From Methylomonas montana (GTDB lineage: Bacteria > Pseudomonadota > Gammaproteobacteria > Methylococcales > Methylomonadaceae): a stretch of 64,000 nucleotides of DNA. Below the pieces are notes generated by a model, which saw nothing but the letters and a program-made list of their open reading frames with translations, was not told where the DNA came from and ran no database searches. This document shows, piece after piece, positions 2,890 through 11,952 of the stretch (position 1 is the stretch's first letter; each line of letters opens with the position of its first letter). The position numbers were made by a program, and so were the translations under genes. The stretch spans positions 2,232,001 to 2,296,000 of the forward strand of contig NZ_CP129884.1 of assembly GCF_030490285.1 (NCBI RefSeq), in the 5' to 3' direction.

Positions 2890-4152
2890 TTAAAAACTGA
2901 CGTTGGCTTGCAACCAGATTTTTTGGGTATCGGTAAACGCTGCATTTTCGGTATTGAAATTGGCGTATTTGGCTAGCAAGGAATAGTGCTTGCCGAATTT
3001 TTTCAGTATCGAAAAATCCCATTCGCTGCCGTATTCGACACCGCCGGTATCGTCGTAAAAATCGTGATACACGCCGGTGAAGATCAGGCTATCGTTCATG
3101 GTTTTGTAGCTGGCGGTGGCGAATACGTCGCGTATACCGTTAGCCGGTGTCACCAGGAATAAATCGGCCCAACCTTGGAAGGCATGGTTAGTGCCCAGCG
3201 GGGTTTGGAAAACCCGGTTGTTGCCGTAACCGTTGAGTTGTTCGACGGCGCCTTGCAAGGTCAGGTTATAGGCACTCAAGCCACTCATCAGATTGATACG
3301 GTCGGCTTGGTAATGATTAGGGTTGTCCGCGTAGTCGGACTGTTTGCTCCATTCGGCGGTATATACGAAATTGACGGTATCGAAGAACTGCGGCGATTTG
3401 CCGTCGAAGCGCAAACCATAGGTTTGCGACGATTTACTGTAGTTTTCCACTTCCCGATAATCAAGCCAGTAGCCGTAGCCGATCAGATTGCCCCAATCGC
3501 CGACCTTATAATTCAAATTCAAAATCGGCGAATTCATGTCCTCGGTTCTGCCGGCGATATTTTGTACATGATCGATATAACCGGCGTTGATGGTCAGACC
3601 GAACAGCGTTTGATTGTTATGGGTGATCAAAATGGAATCGAAAGTTTGCTCCATTTGCCGCCAGCCGACGTTACCGATGAAACGATCATCGTCGAATTTG
3701 ATGCGTTGCCGGCCGACTTTAATCAGCGTATCGGCGATGCCTTTGTAGCTGAGCCAGAACTGATTGAGCTCGCTTTGGTCCGGGTCGACGATGGTCGAAT
3801 ATTGAGTGCGGCGGTTGACAGTGCTGTTGTAATCTTCCTGCAAGGCATAAAGGCCTTCGTATTCCGCATAGGCTTGAAAATCGTGAAAGGTCGGCGTCAG
3901 GAAGCCCAAGCGCAAGCGGGCAGTATTGGCATTTGCAGTTTTCGGGCCGCCGGAGCCCTTGTCCTGATCCACATTCTCCCAACGGTAGTTCAAATCCATT
4001 TTTACCGCGCCGTTGCTGCCGTAATGGTAAAAATTCAATGCGTCTTCTACCTCCTTGGTAATGTCGGCCGACGCCGGCAAACTGGCGATGGTCATCGACA
4101 ACAGTGTTGCCGGCAAGGTGACGCTCGGCAGTTTGGTTTTTTGCAGTGGCAT
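2890..4152 (-). CDS. Outer-membrane porin of the alginate-export/OprD-like beta-barrel type
   Basis: A 420-residue secreted protein with a signal peptide (MPLQKTKLPSVTLPATLL... ending near SLPASA), alternating amphipathic beta-strand segments, and a C-terminal phenylalanine (QANVSF) typical of outer-membrane barrels recognised by BAM. Segments such as LNQFWLSYKG and KVGRQRIKFDDDRF resemble the alginate_exp porin family. It sits inside the nrt/nas operon, 34 bases after nrtCD, so it probably lets nitrate or nitrite cross the outer membrane. The substrate is inferred from position only. I used the ATG at 4152 because a good ribosome site (AAAGGGGG) precedes it, rather than an upstream ATG at 4203 that overlaps nrtCD. 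Confidence 0.8.
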   Translation of the reverse strand: MPLQKTKLPSVTLPATLLSMTIASLPASADITKEVEDALNFYHYGSNGAVKMDLNYRWENVDQDKGSGGPKTANANTARLRLGFLTPTFHDFQAYAEYEGLYALQEDYNSTVNRRTQYSTIVDPDQSELNQFWLSYKGIADTLIKVGRQRIKFDDDRFIGNVGWRQMEQTFDSILITHNNQTLFGLTINAGYIDHVQNIAGRTEDMNSPILNLNYKVGDWGNLIGYGYWLDYREVENYSKSSQTYGLRFDGKSPQFFDTVNFVYTAEWSKQSDYADNPNHYQADRINLMSGLSAYNLTLQGAVEQLNGYGNNRVFQTPLGTNHAFQGWADLFLVTPANGIRDVFATASYKTMNDSLIFTGVYHDFYDDTGGVEYGSEWDFSILKKFGKHYSLLAKYANFNTENAAFTDTQKIWLQANVSF

Positions 4153-4186
4153 AAAGCCCCCTTTGGCTGGATGGATAAACATGAAA

Positions 4187-5947
4187 TCAATGAGTGTGGT
4201 CACATTCGGACAGGAAGGTCAGCAGGCTTTCCCGGTATTTGTAGTAATCGGGGTGCTCCAGCAGCGCCTTGCGGCTACGCGGTCGCGGCAAATCGATCTC
4301 CAGAATCTTGCCGATCTTGGCGTGGGGACCGTTGGTCATCATCACCACCCGATCAGCCAATAGAATGGCTTCGTCGACATCGTGGGTGACGACGATGGCG
4401 GTGACGTGAGTGCGTTCCCAAACTTCCATCAACACTTCCTGCAATTCCCAGCGCGTCAAGGAATCCAGCATGCCAAACGGTTCGTCGAGCAGCAGCAATT
4501 TGGGCGATAACGCGAAAGCACGGGCGATACCGACCCGTTGGCGCATGCCGTTGGAAAGGTCGGCGGCTTTCTTGAACATGGAGTCGGCCAGACCGACGCG
4601 GGTTAAATAGTATTCGACGATATCGTCGCGTTCGTCTTGGCTGGCGTGCGGATAGACTTTATCGACGCCGAGCATGACGTTTTGGAACGCGGTCAACCAA
4701 GGGAATAGGCTAGGGGCTTGAAACACCACGCCGCGATCCGGGCCGGCGCCGTTGATTTCCCGGTTATCCAGGATAATGCCGCCTTCGGAAATTTCGTTGA
4801 GGCCGGCGGTCATCGACAACACTGTGGATTTGCCGCAACCTGAGTGGCCGATGATGGAAATGAATTCGCCTTTTTTCATTTTCATATCAAAACCGTCTAC
4901 CACCTTGACGCTGCTGTTGCCGTCCGGTGTCGGGTAGATTTTCGAGAGGTTGGCGAATTCCAGATAGCGGGCCTTGCCCAGGTCGCGCGCATTAGGTTTT
5001 AACGCGGAAGTATCCAGTTTCCAGTCGTTACTGGTATTGGGGCGTACGTCCGGCAGTTTGATTTTGTCGCTGCTCACGGTTTGGGTTTTTTCTATGCCGA
5101 TATTCATCAGATAACGGGTGATTTCGGCGCGCAAGCGCTTGAACTCCTCGTTATGATTCAGCGCGGTGCGGTCGCGGGGCCGTTCCAGATCGATATGAAA
5201 CGCCGGCCCGAAACTGGCGTCCGGGCCGGGATTGAGCGGAATCACCCGGTCGGCCATATAAATGGCTTCGTCGACGTCGTTGGTGATCAGAATCACCGTC
5301 TTTTTGTCCTGCTCCCAGATTTGCAGAATTTCGTCTTGCAGATTGCCGCGCGTCAAGGCATCCAGCGCGCTAAGCGGTTCGTCCAGCAACAAAATGTCGG
5401 GGTTGGCGGCCAAGGCGCGGGCGACATTGACCCGTTGGCGCATACCGCCGGACAACTCGCCCGGCTTTTTATCCATGGCCCGGCCCAGATTGACCATCTT
5501 CACGTATTTTTCGGTATGGGCGCGGCGTTGCTCGGCCGTCCAGTTCTTGAAGATCGCATCCACCGCCAGCGCCACGTTTTCATAAACTGTCAGCCAGGGC
5601 ATCAGAGAATAGTTTTGAAACACCACACCCCGATCCGGGCCAGGTTCTTTTATAGGCTGGCCTTGCTTCAGCAACTCGCCGCTATCGGCATGGATCAAAC
5701 CGGCGATCATCGATACCAAGGTGGTTTTGCCGCTGCCGGAAAAGCCGACGATGGCGATGAATTCGCCTTCGCGAATATCCAGATTGATGTCTTTCAGGAT
5801 GGAGGTTTTATCCCGGCCTTCGCCGTAGGATTTACAGACGTTTTTCAATTCCACCAAGGGCTTGTAGGCATCGTTGGCTGGAACGGCAGCGGTTGCTGAT
5901 TGTTTGTGCATGGAAAGCTCGATAATTTTTGCTTGGGCGGCGCTCAT
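4187..5947 (-). CDS. nrtCD: Nitrate ABC transporter ATPase, two fused ABC domains
   Basis: A 586-residue protein with two complete ABC ATPase domains in tandem. The first has Walker [10 protein letters not shown], signature LSGGMRQR and Walker [12 protein letters not shown]. The second has GHSGCGKST, the altered signature LSNGMRQR, and [11 protein letters not shown]. Cyanobacterial systems use separate NrtC and NrtD subunits; here the two ATPases are one polypeptide and there is no NrtA-like C-terminal sensor domain. It powers nitrate import through NrtB. The start at 5947 follows a GAGGATG ribosome site, 10 bases after nrtB ends, so translation is probably coupled. The leading region before the first domain is about 28 residues. 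Confidence 0.93.
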
Positions 5948-5957
5948 GACGGCATCC

Positions 5958-6971
5958 TCAGATTTTTTGGAACGAGAACAGGTTTTGTAGCGAGTGCATG
6001 ACTCGGTCCAAGATGAAGCCGATGATGCCGATGGTAAATACCGCGACCATGATCCGGCTCAGCGAATTGGAGCTGCCGTTTTGAAACTCGTCCCAGACGA
6101 ATTTGCCTAGCCCAGGGTTTTGCGCCAGCATTTCCGCAGCGATCAGCACCATCCAACCCACGCCCAGCGATAGGCGCATGCCGGTAAAGATGTAGGGCAG
6201 GGCGGACGGCAGAATGATGCGTTTGATCTGGGTCATCCAATCCAGGCGCAGCACTTTGCCGACGTTGACCAGATCGCGGTCTATCGACGATACGCCGACG
6301 GCGGTATTGATCAGCGTTGGCCACAGCGAACACAAGGTCACGGTAATCGCCGAAGTGACGAAGGATTTGGCGAACCAGGAGTCGTCGGTGGTGACATAGA
6401 CCGCGCTGACCACCAGCGTGACGATAGGCAGCCAAGCCAGCGGCGATACCGGTTTGAAAATCTGAATCAAAGGGTTAAAAGCGGTATTCAATACCGGACT
6501 CATGCCGCACAGGATACCCAGCGGTACTGCAAACAGCGTGGCGACGATGAAACCGGCGAATACGGTACGCAAGCTGGTGAAAATTTGATCCAGGTAAGTC
6601 GGTTTGCCGGTATAAGGACGTTGCTTGATTTCGGTTTTGGGGTCCTCGGCCAGTTTTTCTTTGTTGCGTAGTTCCTGACGTTGGTAGAACTCGGCCATTT
6701 TGGTTTTTTCGGCGAAATGCTCAGCGACCAGACCGTCGACTTCGCTCCAGACCGCCACCGGGCCGGGAATCGCCCCCAGGCTGGTGTTGATGCGAGCCGC
6801 AGTCACGCTCCAGAAGCCAAGAAAAAGTACAAAAGCAATGATGGGCACACCCATGATCAGCCAAAGCTGGCGCAGTTGTTTAGCCGGATTTTCGCCGGCG
6901 GCTATTTTGACTAAGGGCACAAACCAGGTCAGGCCGGTGATATTGAAAAATTTAATCAGTTTGTTAGTCAT
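5958..6971 (-). CDS. nrtB: Nitrate ABC transporter permease
   Basis: Inner-membrane permease of 337 residues in the NrtB/SsuC/TauC family. A first membrane segment around residues 30-55 is followed by a hydrophilic stretch of about 70 residues and then the binding-protein-dependent transport domain with roughly five further helices. The EAA-type loop is visible ([17 protein letters not shown]...). It forms the channel for nitrate brought by NrtA and is driven by the fused NrtCD ATPase encoded immediately downstream. It begins 89 bases after nrtA. The family includes cyanate, taurine and sulfonate permeases, but with nrtA and nasA in the same operon nitrate is the best substrate call. Confidence 0.92.
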
Positions 6972-7060: not shown

Positions 7061-8455
7061 TTAATCGACTATCTTGCCGCCGGAGACGGTTTGCTTGCCT
7101 TTCAGGCCTATCGGAAATTTGGCCAGATAATCGTTAGGCTTGTTGGCATCGAATGGAATCTTGTCGATGAAGAAGTTTTGCGATGGCTTGATGCCGGTGT
7201 CGGCCGGGAAGTCTTCGGCCTTGGCTTTACCTTCGGCGACCAGTTCTTTCGCGGCGGCCAGATAGATGTCCGGGCGATAAACTTTTTTCGCGGTTTCCAG
7301 GTACCAGTTGTCCGGTTTGTATTCGTTGACCATGCCCCAGCGGCGTAACTGCGTCAGATACCAGACCGCACTGCTGTAAGACGGGTAGCTGGCACCGTGG
7401 CGGAAGAAAGTATTGAAGTCGGGAAGGGCGCGTTTATCGCCTTTTTCATATTCGAAGGTGCCGTTCATGCTGGCGGCCAATACCTCGACATCGGCGCCGA
7501 CATATTGCTTCTGCGACAACATTTCGATCGCTTCCTTGCGATTCTTGTTGTTGTCGGCGTCCAACCAGATAGCGGCGCGAATTAAAGCCTTAGTGACCGC
7601 CAGGTAAGTATTGGGATATTTGTCGGCCCAAGCCTGGGTAACGCCGAAGACTTTTTCCGGCGTGTCTTTCCAGAGTTCTTCGTCGGTGATCACCGGCACG
7701 CCAATGCCTTTAAATACTGCTTGCTGGTTCCACGGTTCGCCGACGCAGTAGCCGAAAATGGTGCCGGACTCCAGCGTCGCCGGCATTTGCGGCGGCGGAG
7801 TTACCGATAGCATGGCTTCGGCGTTGATTTGACCGGAAATGTCTTGGGGTGGTGAATAGAACCCAGGGTTAATACCACCGGCGGCCAGCCAGTAACGTAA
7901 TTTCACGTTATGCGAGCCGGCCGGGAAGGTCATTGCCATATTGAACGGCTTGCCTTCCGCTTTGTATTTGTCGATGACCGGTTTCAGCGCATCCGCTTTA
8001 ACCGGGCGCACCAGTTTGCCGCCCTCCGTGGGAATGTTGGGCTTCATTTGTTTCCAGATGTCGTTGGATATGGTGATGGCATTGCCGTTGAAGCCCATGC
8101 TGAACGGTACAACGATATCCGCTTTGGTGCCGAAGCCGACACTTGCCGCCAATGGCGCCGGCGCCAACATATGCGAGCCGTCCAGTTCGCCGTTGACGAC
8201 TCGGTCCATCACCACTTTCCAGTTGGCTTGGGCCTCCAGTTGCACGAACAGGCCTTCTTCCTCGAAAAAGCCTTTTTCGGCGGCTACCGCCAGCGGCGCC
8301 ATATCGGTGAGTTTGATGAAACCGAATTTCAGGTCTTCTTTCTCCAGTTTGCCGGCGGCGAAGCTGTGGTTGGAAAAGCCTAATATTGCCACTGCGACGG
8401 CCGAACTTAGCGCGGCGACAAGTGTTTTCGGTGTAAATATTCTGCAATGTTTCAT
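7061..8455 (-). CDS. nrtA: Nitrate ABC transporter substrate-binding protein
   Basis: Periplasmic nitrate-binding protein of 464 residues in the NrtA/CmpA family. A signal peptide covers about the first 38 residues (hydrophobic core [15 protein letters not shown], then SFAAG). The mature start [21 protein letters not shown] is the classic NrtA N-lobe sequence. It is the first gene of the operon and follows a long regulated leader. The ATG at 8455 is preceded by AGGAA five bases upstream; the ATG at 8470 has no such site. CmpA (bicarbonate) is a close relative, but nasA in the operon favours nitrate. Confidence 0.93.
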
Positions 8456-8487
8456 GTCGGTTCCTGTCATTTGAGAAAAATTGGCCC

Positions 8488-8538
8488 AAAAAAAAGGCGT
8501 CTACGTCCGATTTGTCATCAAATCGGGCGATAGACGCC
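8488..8538 (-). terminator. Intrinsic terminator in the nrtA leader (attenuator)
   Basis: Read on the minus strand, a long GC-rich hairpin (arms starting GGCGTCTA and ending TAGACGCC, about 19-20 bases each with small mismatches, 4-base loop) is followed at once by eight T residues (plus-strand A-tract 8488-8495). It stands about 30 bases before the nrtA start and downstream of the promoter, so it would stop transcription before the operon unless antiterminated. Confidence 0.88.
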
Positions 8539-8550
8539 TTTGTCTCGATT

Positions 8551-8594
8551 GCTCAACGATGAGCTGCTTTAGTGTGCGACTCCTACGCTGGAGT
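8551..8594 (-). promoter_or_regulatory. ANTAR-target leader RNA: two hexaloop hairpins
   Basis: On the minus strand two short hairpins stand in tandem. P1 (8579-8594) is ACTCC-AGCGTA-GGAGT and P2 (8551-8564) is GCTC-ATCGTT-GAGC. Both have six-base loops with A at position 1 and G at position 4, the known signature of RNA bound by ANTAR-domain antiterminators such as NasR and NasT. The terminator follows 12 bases later. This predicts nitrate-responsive antitermination of the operon; the regulator gene is not in this window. Confidence 0.85.
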
Positions 8595-8608
8595 ATTGCC
8601 TTACATAA

Positions 8609-8625
8609 AGCAAACCCGGTGCCAA
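8609..8625 (-). promoter_or_regulatory. Sigma-54 (-24/-12) promoter of the nrt/nas operon
   Basis: Minus-strand TTGGCACCGGGTTTGCT matches the RpoN consensus TGGCAC-N5-TTGCW, with exactly 10 bases between the invariant GG and GC. Transcription should start near 8598, just before the ANTAR hairpins, which fits the leader architecture. Confidence 0.88.
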
Positions 8626-8775
8626 TCTTTGCATTTCACTGGGATGTTTTTATAAATCTTATTTTAAAACAGTGGCTTATTGTGTTTTTTAAATGAGCTT
8701 GATGTGTTGTGAGTCAGACGGCGCACTAAAACGGCGTTGAAAACGATGCACTCTATTGAAACAGCCCCTGTTTTT

Positions 8776-8791
8776 TGCACTTGTATGGTGC
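8776..8791. promoter_or_regulatory. NtrC-type enhancer site
   Basis: The sequence tgcacttgtatggtgc matches the NtrC consensus GCAC-N5-TGGTGC exactly. It lies about 155 bases upstream of the sigma-54 promoter, a normal enhancer distance. A weaker half-site (tgcac at 8747-8751) lies 29 bases nearer the promoter. In the rest of the gap up to the terminator at 8983 I see no credible gene. Confidence 0.8.
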
Positions 8792-8982
8792 GGCAATCAT
8801 TAACGGTAGCCTACGGAAAAACAGGGATTGCGGATTGCACGTAGCCTTTCTAAACGCTAGCGAAGCCAACGGAATGGCGCTTAACTATCGGGAACCGGGT
8901 AAATTTGGAGTTGTTCTGGCGAGGCTTATCCGACGAGATGCTTGCCGGAGAAAGTAGAAATCGGCTGGCGTTTAAGAGAAGA

Positions 8983-9015
8983 GGGCGCAACGACGGCTGT
9001 TAAAGTGTTGCGCCC
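8983..9015 (-). terminator. Terminator downstream of the carbonic anhydrase gene
   Basis: A perfect 9-bp inverted repeat (gggcgcaac / gttgcgccc) with a 15-base loop starts 22 bases after the carbonic anhydrase stop codon. On the minus strand it is followed by a pyrimidine-rich TCTTCTCTT. Confidence 0.6.
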
Positions 9016-9036
9016 TTAATCGGACAAGATTGCGGT

Positions 9037-9615
9037 TTAGCGGGCTTGACCGGCCGCGGTCGCTTCCGGTACTTCCAGTAACCTGCCGGTTTTTACGTCG
9101 TAAACGTAGCCATAAACCGGGATTTCGCCGGGTACCAAGGGATGCGATTTAATGCGGTTAACGTCTTCCAGCACGCTTTCCGCTTGGTTTTTGATGGTCA
9201 GCCAATTGATGTATTTACCGTCGGTCGAACCTGGACCCGCGCCATTGTCGTGCCAACCGGTCGCATCGATGCTGGCGGTCTGTAAACTGCTGGCCAGCAA
9301 ATCGCTCATGATTTCATTGGTAAAGGTTTCCATGCCGCAATCGGTGTGATGAATCACGAACCATTCCTTGGTGCCGAGTAATTTGTAGGAAATAACCAGG
9401 GAACGGATTGCGTCGTCGCTGGCGCGGCCGCCTGCGTTGCGGATCACGTGAGCATCGCCTTCGGATAAACCTGCGTATTTGGCAGGGTCGAGGCGGGCGT
9501 CCATGCAAGTCAGTATCGCAAACTGACGTGCGGGAGGCATGGCCAAGCCACCTTTGTCGAAACCGGACGCATATTCGCGATTGGCCAGGAGTACTTCGTT
9601 GTGAATTTTGCTCAT
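9037..9615 (-). CDS. Beta-class carbonic anhydrase
   Basis: A 192-residue zinc enzyme interconverting CO2 and bicarbonate. The beta-class active site is clear: Cys37 with the Asp39/Arg41 dyad (TCMDAR), then His90 and Cys93 (HHTDCG). The short form of about 190 residues with [12 protein letters not shown] matches cytoplasmic bacterial beta-CAs. I chose the ATG at 9615, which follows a GAGG site, instead of an upstream ATG at 9702 that would add an unlike 29-residue leader. It is a single gene with its own terminator, divergent from the LysR regulator 150 bases away, which may control it. In a C1- or CO2-dependent organism it would supply bicarbonate to carboxylases; that is inference. Confidence 0.93.
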
Positions 9616-9739
9616 AATAACCTCGGTGGGTGAAAAAACGTCTGGTTTAAAACCACGAAACCAGACGGTGTAACGACTATCTCCGGGCGGCATTGTAGCC
9701 AAGCGCTATTCTGGTTTAAAGATGCTATTTGGTTTATAA

Positions 9740-9762
9740 AATATAAACTTTAAGTTTATATT
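9740..9762. promoter_or_regulatory. Perfect AT-rich palindrome between carbonic anhydrase and LysR genes
   Basis: An 11-bp perfect inverted repeat around one central base (aatataaactt t aagtttatatt). It ends 10 bases before the LysR gene start and lies in the divergent promoter region. It has the size and symmetry of a LysR-type or other dimeric-regulator operator, probably autoregulatory. Confidence 0.55.
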
Positions 9763-9772
9763 GGATGCTGCA

Positions 9773-10657
9773 ATGGATAAGTTTAACAACATGCGCGTTT
9801 TTTGCCGGATTGTCGAGTTGGGCACGTTTTCGGCGGTCGCCAAGGAAATGAAGCTATCGACCATGATGATCAGCAAATACATCGCCCAACTGGAGGCGTC
9901 CTTGGGCGTGGTTTTGCTGCATCGCACCACGCGCAGCTTAAGCCTGACCAGCGCCGGAGAAGCTTATTACAACCGCAGCAAGCAATTGCTGGAGGATCTG
10001 GCTGATTTGGAAGCCGCCACCGCGCAATTGGGCGAAAGGGTGAAAGGCACCATCAAACTCAGCGCGCCTATCGATTTTGGCGGTATGTATATGGTGCCGG
10101 CTATCGAAAGTTATCTGCGCCAATATCCGGAGGTGAAGATTTTGATGTCGCTGGACAACAAGCCGCCGAATTTACGGGTCGGTAGTTTCGATATTTCCTT
10201 ATTGGTGACCGACACGCTCGACCCTGGCGTCGTGGCGCGCAAGATTGCCGAGACTGAATTATGTACCTATGCATCGCCGGCTTATCTGAGCGAAAAAGGC
10301 TGTCCGCAAACGATAGACGAGCTTGGCAACCACCAATGCCTGCATTATGTCGATACGCCGCATGGGGATTATTGGCTGTTTAATGTCGATGGCGAACTAA
10401 AAAAAATCAAATCCGATTGGGTGCTGGCGTCGAATAACGGTCGGGCATTGTGTCAGGCGGCGGCGATGGGGATGGGAATCGTCCAGGCGCCCAGGCTATC
10501 GGTAGCGCCGTATTTACAAAGCGGCGAGTTGGTGGAAATTTTGCGCGAATACCGCCGCACATCGCTGGCAATCTACGCCACTTATTTGCAGCGGCGTTTT
10601 TATCCCGCTAAGTTAACAAGCTTCATCGATTTTTTATTGGCGTATTTCGAGCGATAA
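9773..10657 (+). CDS. LysR-family transcriptional regulator
   Basis: A 294-residue DNA-binding regulator. The N-terminal winged helix-turn-helix is plain (MDKFNNMRVFCRIVELGTFS..., then KLSTMMISKYIAQLE and LHRTTRS). The C-terminal two-lobe effector domain spans residues 90-294. The sequence places it in the large CrgA/DsdC-like LysR group, whose ligand cannot be predicted. I use the ATG at 9773 because the earlier TTG at 9761 lies inside the palindrome and adds nothing conserved. It diverges from the carbonic anhydrase gene, a usual arrangement for a LysR target, so the carbonic anhydrase is the best candidate target. Confidence 0.9.
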   Translation: MDKFNNMRVFCRIVELGTFSAVAKEMKLSTMMISKYIAQLEASLGVVLLHRTTRSLSLTSAGEAYYNRSKQLLEDLADLEAATAQLGERVKGTIKLSAPIDFGGMYMVPAIESYLRQYPEVKILMSLDNKPPNLRVGSFDISLLVTDTLDPGVVARKIAETELCTYASPAYLSEKGCPQTIDELGNHQCLHYVDTPHGDYWLFNVDGELKKIKSDWVLASNNGRALCQAAAMGMGIVQAPRLSVAPYLQSGELVEILREYRRTSLAIYATYLQRRFYPAKLTSFIDFLLAYFER

Positions 10658-10671
10658 GGCTGAAATTGGGC

Positions 10672-11952
10672 TTATGAAATCAAATACGTTGACTGCGGTT
10701 CCTCGGCCGCTTCGAGTATTTGTTCCATGCTGACTTTATCGTAACCACCGGATAGCAGGACGATAAAACGCTCGCGCAGCATCGGGCTTTGCCGGGAACG
10801 CAGGATAATATTATTGGCGTCTTTTTGCTCCAGAATCCGATACCAGTTGTAAATCATTTGGAAAATCCGCCCCATCGGTTCACGGATGCGCTCCTCATAA
10901 TTACGCAACCGGGCCGCGCTGAAATCGCCGCCGTTAGCGAAACCGTCCAGAATGGCATCGGCAGCGAACAGACCGCTACGCATCGCCAGTGTCACGCCGG
11001 CGGAAAACACCGGATCGACAAACATCGAGGCATCGCCCACCAGCACAAAGCCGTCGCCGTGAAAACGCTCATTCATATAACCGATAGAAGAAATGGTTTT
11101 GACTTCCATCGCTTGCTCAGCGTCTTCGAGCCATTCGCGCACGCTGGTACAACTGGCGATGGCTTTCTCGAAGCGTTCTTGGGGAGAATCGCCCAAGTTT
11201 TTCGCGAAGCGGGTATCCAAAACTGCACCGACGCTGGTGATATCGTTTCTTAAAGGGATATACCAAACCCAGCCGCCATCGATGGTGTGGATGTCGGTCG
11301 TCACCGAGCCATCCATCACCTCGCCAAAATTGATAAAACCGTGCGGATTGCGGCGAAAGCCACCCTTGAAATGGGCAAAATGGGCGATTTTGTTCAGTTC
11401 GGGTAAGGGGCGCCGCCAGTTGAGTTTGCGGGCGATCAGCGACTCCCGTCCTGATGCGTCAACCACCACCGAGGCATGAATCGGCGCAGGTGCGGAACCA
11501 TTCTTCCCGGCACTAACACCAATCGCTCGTTCGCCTTCGAATAGTACGTCCGCGACTGACCATTCCCGACGCACGTCAACGCCACATTCTGCTGCATGTT
11601 CCAGCAAAATTTCATCGAAACGAGCGCGTTCGACATGATAGGTATAAGGCCGTTCGAAATACCCTGGATATTCGGCAGTCAGTAGCAACACATCGGGTTT
11701 TTGATTGAACATACCGAAATTGGCGCCCTGTTTCACTGTAAAACCTTCGGCTTCAATCTTTTCGGTGATACCCAGCCGCCGCCAGATTTCCCAACAGGCC
11801 GGCAACAAGGATTCACCGATTTGAAAGCGCGGAAAACGAGAGCGCTCGAACAACACCACGCGTTTGCCGGCTTTAGCCAACATGATCGCCGCGCTGGCGC
11901 CGGCCGGGCCGCCACCGATGACGGCGGCATCGAAGCATTCAAATTGCGACAT
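10672..11952 (-). CDS. Flavin-dependent halogenase-like oxidoreductase (copy 1)
   Basis: A 426-residue FAD enzyme of the halogenase/geranylgeranyl-reductase superfamily. The FAD motif VIGGGPAGA lies at residues 11-19. GESLLP follows, then Lys74 in VKQGANF, the position of the catalytic lysine of CndH/PltA-type halogenases. Later comes WVWYIP, the W.W.IP motif of flavin-dependent halogenases, and GDASMFVDPVFSAGV, the second FAD motif. Two paralogues sit at 25.6 and 49.9 kb inside the aryl-polyene island. Such enzymes occur in xanthomonadin-type clusters, where the aryl ring can be halogenated. A ribosome site (AGGTGG) precedes the ATG. Whether it halogenates or acts as a monooxygenase cannot be read from sequence. 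Confidence 0.82.
   Translation of the reverse strand: MSQFECFDAAVIGGGPAGASAAIMLAKAGKRVVLFERSRFPRFQIGESLLPACWEIWRRLGITEKIEAEGFTVKQGANFGMFNQKPDVLLLTAEYPGYFERPYTYHVERARFDEILLEHAAECGVDVRREWSVADVLFEGERAIGVSAGKNGSAPAPIHASVVVDASGRESLIARKLNWRRPLPELNKIAHFAHFKGGFRRNPHGFINFGEVMDGSVTTDIHTIDGGWVWYIPLRNDITSVGAVLDTRFAKNLGDSPQERFEKAIASCTSVREWLEDAEQAMEVKTISSIGYMNERFHGDGFVLVGDASMFVDPVFSAGVTLAMRSGLFAADAILDGFANGGDFSAARLRNYEERIREPMGRIFQMIYNWYRILEQKDANNIILRSRQSPMLRERFIVLLSGGYDKVSMEQILEAAEEPQSTYLIS

Follow-up and report, generated by a model that had tools for sequence, protein, structure and literature searches.

A three-hexaloop leader upstream of nrtA in Methylomonas montana: a probable NasT-dependent antitermination element behind an NtrC/sigma-54 promoter

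The window, i.e., the whole stretch of 64,000 nucleotides of Methylomonas montana DNA that was analysed, contains a series of genes for nitrate transport and reduction, all on the minus strand. The first, nrtA (7061-8470), encodes the binding protein of a nitrate ABC transporter (PF13379, E 1.9e-96). By eye, its likelier start is the ATG at 8455, which has AGGA ahead of it. The next gene encodes an nrtB-like permease (5958-6971; PF00528, with the best NCBIfam match, TIGR01183, below its cut-off), and is followed by the double-ATPase protein of the nitrate transporter (4187-5947; TIGR01184 in two stretches, 604.5 bits, above cut-off), an outer-membrane protein of the Alginate_exp family (2890-4203; PF13372), a NirB-like NAD(P)H/FAD reductase (1605-2945; TIGR02374 over the first 390 positions, below cut-off), and the 5' part of nasA (1-1592; Pfam Molybdopterin). 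The latter, a molybdopterin nitrate reductase gene, extends past the window and spans 8915-11593 (minus strand) in locus L007. Only 1 nt separates nasA from a downstream EAL-YkuI_C gene, a member of the c-di-GMP phosphodiesterase family (L007, 7723-8913, minus strand, same genome but outside the window), and such a gene adjoins nasA in six of the eight genomes of the genus (relatives of it are found, e.g., in L310 and L307). On the other side, upstream of the control region, lies a carbonic anhydrase gene (Pro_CA, 9037-9702, minus strand), whose stop is 247 nt beyond the NtrC site.

The initial annotation had listed four elements ahead of nrtA, namely an NtrC site, a sigma-54 promoter, a pair of hexaloop hairpins, and a terminator with eight Ts. 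All four are present where it had put them, on the minus strand like nrtA. The perfect GCAC-N5-TGGTGC site, an NtrC-type enhancer element, is an exact match at 8777-8791 (GCACTTGTATGGTGC) and the sole one in the 64 kb. When one mismatch is allowed, the window contains 4 matches vs 5.97 expected, which alone is not significant. The -24/-12 promoter is also exactly as described: TTGGCACCGGGTTTGCT (8609-8625, minus strand) has a GG-to-GC spacing of 10 and is the only exact TTGGCAC-N5-TTGCT match in the window, where two mismatches give 9 matches for 7.6 expected. From the -12 position, the start of the RNA is predicted near 8598.

Three hairpins with six-nucleotide loops follow, each with A at loop position 1 and G at position 4 (A1/G4). 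The two of the initial annotation, H1 (ACTCC-AGCGTA-GGAGT, 8579-8594) and H2 (GCTC-ATCGTT-GAGC, 8551-8564), both on the minus strand and with -5.6 kcal/mol, are presumed recruitment hairpins. Folded alone, the minimum free energy structure of H2 also pairs A1 with U6, which leaves a 4-nt loop. The third, H3 (AGAC-AAAGGC-GTCT, 8532-8545, minus strand), has a C-G closing pair and is the predicted antiterminator. Spacers are of 14 nt between H1 and H2 and of 5 nt between H2 and H3. The intrinsic terminator hairpin (8493-8541, minus strand) has -30 kcal/mol and a z-score of -7.2 over the stretch 8489-8546, and it is followed by the run of eight Ts (8488-8495, minus strand). Neither H1 nor H2 overlaps the terminator. 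The loop and 3' arm of H3 constitute the terminator 5' arm, so that H3 and the terminator are mutually exclusive. The box GACAAAGGCGTC (8533-8544) is part of H3 and overlaps this same arm. Since H3 alone is weak (-2.3 kcal/mol) relative to the terminator stretch, its formation would depend on a bound protein, in line with the antitermination model discussed below.

To place these elements in context, we used the best 80 nrtA loci as a comparison set, and among them the nearest 27 (L024-L050). Of these, 26 are labelled Methylococcales or as genera that we take to belong there, and L044 is labelled gammaproteobacterium only. The leader precedes nrtA in 25 of the 27, as identified by a hairpin finder, except for L035, which was recognised by eye and whose weakened H3 the finder missed. 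The finder identified no leader in L038 and L039; as it demands pairing, it may have picked chance hairpins in some loci. All counts come from one alignment (A1) of the window and the 25 leader loci, i.e., 26 rows, of which two (L024 and L050) are out of register in H1; the finder shows A1/G4 hexaloops in both. Two alignments of the part from H2 to the terminator (A2 and A4) were set aside because several rows were badly cut.

The promoter elements are conserved in this set. A sigma-54 element precedes all 26 aligned leaders, and GCAC-N7-GTGC with at most one mismatch occurs in 23 of the 26 related upstream regions (350 nt each), whereas mononucleotide shuffles lead us to expect 1.6. Perfect copies are found in four regions vs 0.045 expected from the same shuffles. 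In 14 of the 23 regions with a site, a start lies 132-137 or 164-167 nt upstream of the -24 element, and no site was found within the 350 nt in L026, L027, and L040. Hence, the significance of the NtrC site comes from its conservation across related loci and not from single-site statistics. As the genome also encodes NtrC (TIGR01818, 738.9 bits vs 558.6) and RpoN, the GG-N10-GC element and the site upstream of it have what would be expected of an NtrC-dependent sigma-54 promoter.

The hairpins are conserved as well. Paired cells amount to 90.8% in H1, 99.0% in H2, and 91.3% in H3, relative to 32-46% in slid controls. The covariation score of H1-H3, the percentage paired, and the number of cells with two-sided change are above all 500 shuffles, which keep the relatedness of the sequences. 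Pairs that changed on both sides number 5 of 13, a value reached by 67 of the 500 shuffles, and the count of pair types was reached by 119. In the terminator, 94.6% of the cells are paired and covariation does not exceed that of the shuffles. Loop positions A1 and G4 are kept in 21 and 22 leaders in H1, 24 and 25 in H2, and 26 and 26 in H3 (out of 26). Variable positions are 3, 5, and 6 in the loop of H1 and 2, 3, 5, and 6 in that of H2; the loop of H3 is nearly invariant because it also serves the terminator. The closing pair is C-G in 24 leaders for H2 and in all 26 for H3, whereas H1 is closed by either C-G or U-G in 24. The spacer between H2 and H3 varies between 3 and 6 nt and that between H1 and H2 between 5 and 16 nt, being mostly of 10-11 nt. 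Two A1/G4 hexaloops with stems of at least 4 bp are present upstream of H3 in 20 of the 26 leaders and in none of the leaders produced by 300 rounds of dinucleotide shuffling. Elsewhere among the best 80 loci, we found H3 with one upstream hexaloop in L060, L082, and L087 and with two in L051 and L063. The nrtA leader of L036 (2817-2930) is shortened: it has lost H2, its H1 is degenerate, and it retains H3 and the terminator. A different type of nrtA leader, in which another terminator carries a GGC-A..G..-GCC hexaloop, is found in L055, L061, L062, L076, L079, L084, L097, and L103, several of them labelled Alteromonadales.

We then built a covariance model of the leader (R1) and searched it in 16 chosen genomes. 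In the genome of the window, it matches the nrtA leader (1.7e-19) and a second leader ahead of nirB (4.5e-7), with the next match at 0.26. Each of the eight genomes of the genus has one strong and one weaker match, the weaker being the nirB leader in all eight, and G117 has a third at 5e-5. The nirB leader (L006, 8239-8360; 3044238-3044359 in the genome, minus strand) keeps H3 and the terminator, and has upstream only a hairpin with a 7-nt loop. The exact 12-mer GACAAAGGCGTC is found in three places of the genome: the two leaders and L106. The copy in L106 was rejected as a third leader, since there is no T-run in the next 60 nt. By eye, H3 and a T-run after the same box are present in 11 nirB leaders; upstream, eight of them show a stem of 6 bp closed by a loop of 7 nt, and three show nothing regular. 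No upstream A1/G4 hexaloop was found in the nine nirB leaders scanned. We dropped an alternative structure for this leader, based on 10 nt of complementarity between the hairpin and the post-terminator GTCTCGTCGT, as the complementarity does not exceed 8 nt in the 10 other loci.

The initial annotation had proposed the Rfam ANTAR model as a check. No Rfam family reaches its gathering score at the leader; at these thresholds a single tRNA is the only match in the window. The nearest families are P11 (29.2 bits for a cut-off of 70) and the narK RNA (RF03032; 20.1 bits vs 43.2, match at 8531-8623, minus strand), which has the H3 box in common with the leader. A stricter search of P11 over 274 genomes at the class level matched 10, one of them above the cut-off, and the genome of the window was not among the matches. 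P11 (RF00625) is NalA, the leader of nirBD in Pseudomonas, which acts with NasT. It has the same order of elements, i.e., a sigma-54 promoter, two hexaloops, a GACAAAGGCGUC box, and a terminator, and its Rfam consensus has two hexaloop hairpins and then GGACAAAGGCGUCC, a layout like the one found here. However, our leader precedes nrtA and not nirBD, NasS was not found in the genome, and the P11 score is under the cut-off, which is why we do not file the leader as RF00625. NalA is reported to be under the control of sigma-54, NtrC, and NasT and to be needed for its operon. Considering this role of NalA, and the presence of the element before nrtA in almost all the nearest loci and before nirB in the same genome, it is very improbable that the element acts chiefly in trans, as a small RNA, with incidental read-through, even if termination should yield an RNA of about 110 nt and Rfam titles P11, as first catalogued, a Pseudomonas sRNA. 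Some caution is warranted by the Bradyrhizobium narK leader, where predicted NasT hairpins did not mean activation by NasT: expression was reported to be higher, not lower, without NasT (PMC6759348).

The comparison can be extended to the leaders bound by other ANTAR proteins. In the published model, there are two hexaloops and the last hairpin is the antiterminator (PMC3369936). The nasF leader of Klebsiella, with NasR, and the eut leaders, with EutV, share with ours the A1/G4 hexaloops, the C-G closing pairs, and a last hairpin that overlaps the terminator. SELEX for NasR chose this same C-G closing pair, A1, and G4 (PMC7496416). These leaders differ in that they have two hexaloops and ours three, and in that NasR carries a NIT domain where the protein found here is of the receiver-bearing NasT type. 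Judged by the model of Ramesh 2012, which asks for at least two A1/G4 hexaloop hairpins, the nrtA leader has three. Its last hexaloop hairpin, H3 (8532-8545), overlaps the 5' arm of the terminator (8493-8541), and both are conserved. The H2-H3 spacer, of 5 nt, fits that of paired hairpins, for which the range is 5-12 nt in the eut leaders of E. faecalis.

The initial annotation was thus right to propose antitermination through an ANTAR-type leader, with NtrC, RpoN, and a NasT-type protein in the genome, and it overlooked the hairpin predicted to switch, which is H3 and not H1 with H2. One could still take H1 and H2 as the two-hairpin ANTAR motif and H3 as merely the 5' arm of the terminator: both have A1/G4 hexaloops, and their spacers are of 14 nt here and of 5-16 nt in the 26 leaders. 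We consider this improbable. The two hairpins do not overlap the terminator, and the model thus leaves them without a means of opening it. Besides, the GAC that forms the 5' arm of H3 in 25 of the 26 leaders (GGC in one) is outside the terminator stem and far better kept than the preceding spacer. Finally, a 14-nt linker was reported to reduce the induction by EutV strongly. In our view, the nrtA leader is very probably an antitermination element of the NalA kind, dependent on NasT and transcribed from an NtrC/sigma-54 promoter.

The genome, a single contig of 4.63 Mb, encodes one ANTAR protein, as the Ramesh 2012 model would require. It has 193 aa with a receiver and an ANTAR domain, i.e., it is of the NasT type (E 2.5e-18). 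The initial annotation had staked its reading on the presence of such a protein and had named nasT/nasS or nasR as the genes to look for: a NasT-type protein was found, and neither NasS nor a NasR with a NIT-ANTAR fusion was, the sole ANTAR protein of the genome carrying a receiver domain. To assess the association between leader and regulator, we used 49 genomes, covering all of L024-L050 and 23 of the 53 other nrtA loci, weighted to loci lacking leaders and with L096 missing. An ANTAR match is present in 29 of the 30 genomes with a leader vs 11 of the 19 without (Fisher p 0.001, ignoring relatedness), a count in which L035 stands as lacking a leader although a weakened one is visible. When weak ANTAR matches are set aside, the values are 28 of 30 vs 8 of 19. 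The genomes of L038 and L039, where no leader was found, have no ANTAR match, and in L044, a MAG of 2.5 Mb, the leader is present and no ANTAR match was found. A number of genomes of the family, e.g., G010, G014, G065, G078, and G093, encode a further ANTAR protein with a weaker match (E about 1e-10 to 1e-14).

The sequence itself shows the elements and how they are conserved, the overlap between H3 and the terminator, and the regulator genes; from these we infer binding, its order, read-through, and a response to nitrate as follows. Under nitrogen limitation, phosphorylated NtrC at 8777-8791 would activate the sigma-54 RNA polymerase at 8609-8625, giving an RNA with its 5' end near 8598. In the default state, transcription would stop at the terminator (8493-8541) and leave an RNA of about 110 nt. 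Active NasT, supplied by a narK-nasT operon, would meet H1 and then H2 as they emerge, in the form of an ANTAR dimer, and pass to H3. Stabilised H3 would take the 5' arm of the terminator, and the polymerase would continue into nrtA and the genes behind. According to the EutV structure paper of 2022, the dimer binds one hexaloop at a time and moves from P1 to P2 (PMC8934654). Relative to this, the third hexaloop would add a second recruitment site. The nirB leader, with H3 only, and the nrtA leader, with three hexaloops, would thus serve one NasT in one genome, and the single hexaloop of the former counts against the dual-hexaloop rule. NasR is reported to bind the single P2 hairpin about twelvefold more weakly than P1P2 (PMC7496416), so that the control of nirB is expected to be weaker or of another kind.

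The initial annotation had also described the circuit as one of nitrogen starvation AND nitrate. Control by NtrC and sigma-54 supports the first half; the second remains inferential, as the ANTAR protein is receiver-ANTAR and not NIT-ANTAR, and NasS was not found. In Paracoccus denitrificans, a receiver-ANTAR protein is also reported to act on the leader of a nitrate operon, and it is paired with NasS, whereas here nasT is coupled to narK. Our query was a putative NasS encoded beside nasT in a genome of genus g14, named by its position and its likeness to NrtA and not from a curated family. Close matches (77-100%) were found in four g14 genomes only, among 121 genomes of the family. In the genome of the window, which has four PF13379 places, two of them weak (L004 and L005), the best matches reach 44% (NrtA) and 32% (an ABC binding protein whose N-terminus is Tat-like), even if a more divergent NasS is possible. 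Of the NasS-NasT pair, this genome therefore has NasT, with its receiver and ANTAR domains, and no detected NasS.

Most genera of the family with NasT encode instead a protein of 306 aa with three GAF repeats, usually beside nasT, and one genus keeps NasS. This triple-GAF protein is found in 38 of the 121 family genomes, all 38 with an ANTAR match, which 69 of the 121 have (Fisher p 2e-12, ignoring relatedness). Its gene is usually right behind nasT (e.g., plus strand, L203 3984-4904, L204 4371-5291, and L207 4175-5098): in 29 genomes both are on one strand and 37-79 nt separate the ANTAR domain from the start of the gene, in one the gene is on the opposite strand, and in eight it is not within 3 kb. 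It also occurs in L029, L032, L034, L037, L040, L041, L043, L045, L046, L049, and L050, in none of the four NasS genomes, and is absent from the genome of the window. Its AlphaFold model (pLDDT 83) has a general GAF similarity in Foldseek, with tandem GAFs of phosphodiesterases first and nitrate-bound NreA at rank 35 (E 1.1e-4). NreA of Staphylococcus is described as a nitrate-binding GAF protein (PMC8139620), so a GAF nitrate sensor is possible. The triple-GAF protein is a candidate partner or sensor of NasT, and its Foldseek likeness does not show nitrate binding. In six of the seven g15 genomes, an EAL-YkuI_C gene is at most 1.5 kb from nasT or the triple-GAF gene, and in G042 and G110 sigma-54 elements and A1/G4 hexaloops lie upstream of EAL genes. 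c-di-GMP was reported to inhibit NasT in Pseudomonas putida (Nie 2024, as cited in a review).

Strong ANTAR matches (E under 1e-14) are found in 65 genomes, 23 of which have no NasS and no triple-GAF protein. In all of these except G090, i.e., in 22, the end of narK is followed at 1-3 nt by the start of nasT, and G111 has narK-nasT together with a more distant GAF protein (50%). The genome of the window is of this type, with nasT 2 nt after narK; a sigma-54-like element is found 56 nt ahead of narK, and the interval contains no leader. Across 11 loci, the element is the best-scoring one and at 50-56 nt before narK in nine, the second best at 57 nt in L200, and at 99 nt in L208, with no leader between. 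Hence, the antiterminator as well as its targets would be under NtrC, in a feed-forward arrangement. It is this arrangement, together with the lack of a detected NasS, that gives some weight to the idea that NasT is constitutively active in the genus and that NtrC alone sets nrtA through the level of NasT, the leader being a delay or threshold and not a nitrate switch. We think this rather unlikely, since the leader and its terminator are kept in all eight genomes of the genus, which suggests regulated read-through. A slightly better, if still tentative, explanation is that another protein senses nitrate in place of NasS, either NarK, coupled to nasT in almost all the genomes concerned, or NrtA in a second role. 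The case for NarK is one of gene order, and co-transcription may serve the expression level; the N-terminus of NrtA resembles, by eye, an export signal, which argues against a cytoplasmic role. One may speculate, with more doubt, that the methanotroph family changed the nitrate sensor of NasT, with NasS in one genus, the triple-GAF protein in most, and NarK in the genus of the window sensing by holding and releasing NasT, the three-hexaloop leader being a relay that suits such a NasT.

Among the entries and openings of abstracts listed by full-text literature searches, in which most subscription papers were outside the scope, there was no report of three-hexaloop leaders, of NasT without NasS, or of NasT in methanotrophs. 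Three conserved hexaloops before nrtA, beside a single one before nirB in the same genome, would make the relay model directly testable. The presence of NasT without a detectable NasS raises the question of how nitrate reaches the antiterminator, for which the family offers three arrangements, with NasS, triple GAF, or NarK. If our reading is right, a known switch would be extended to methanotrophs, bacteria whose use of nitrate bears on methane oxidation and nitrogen loss.
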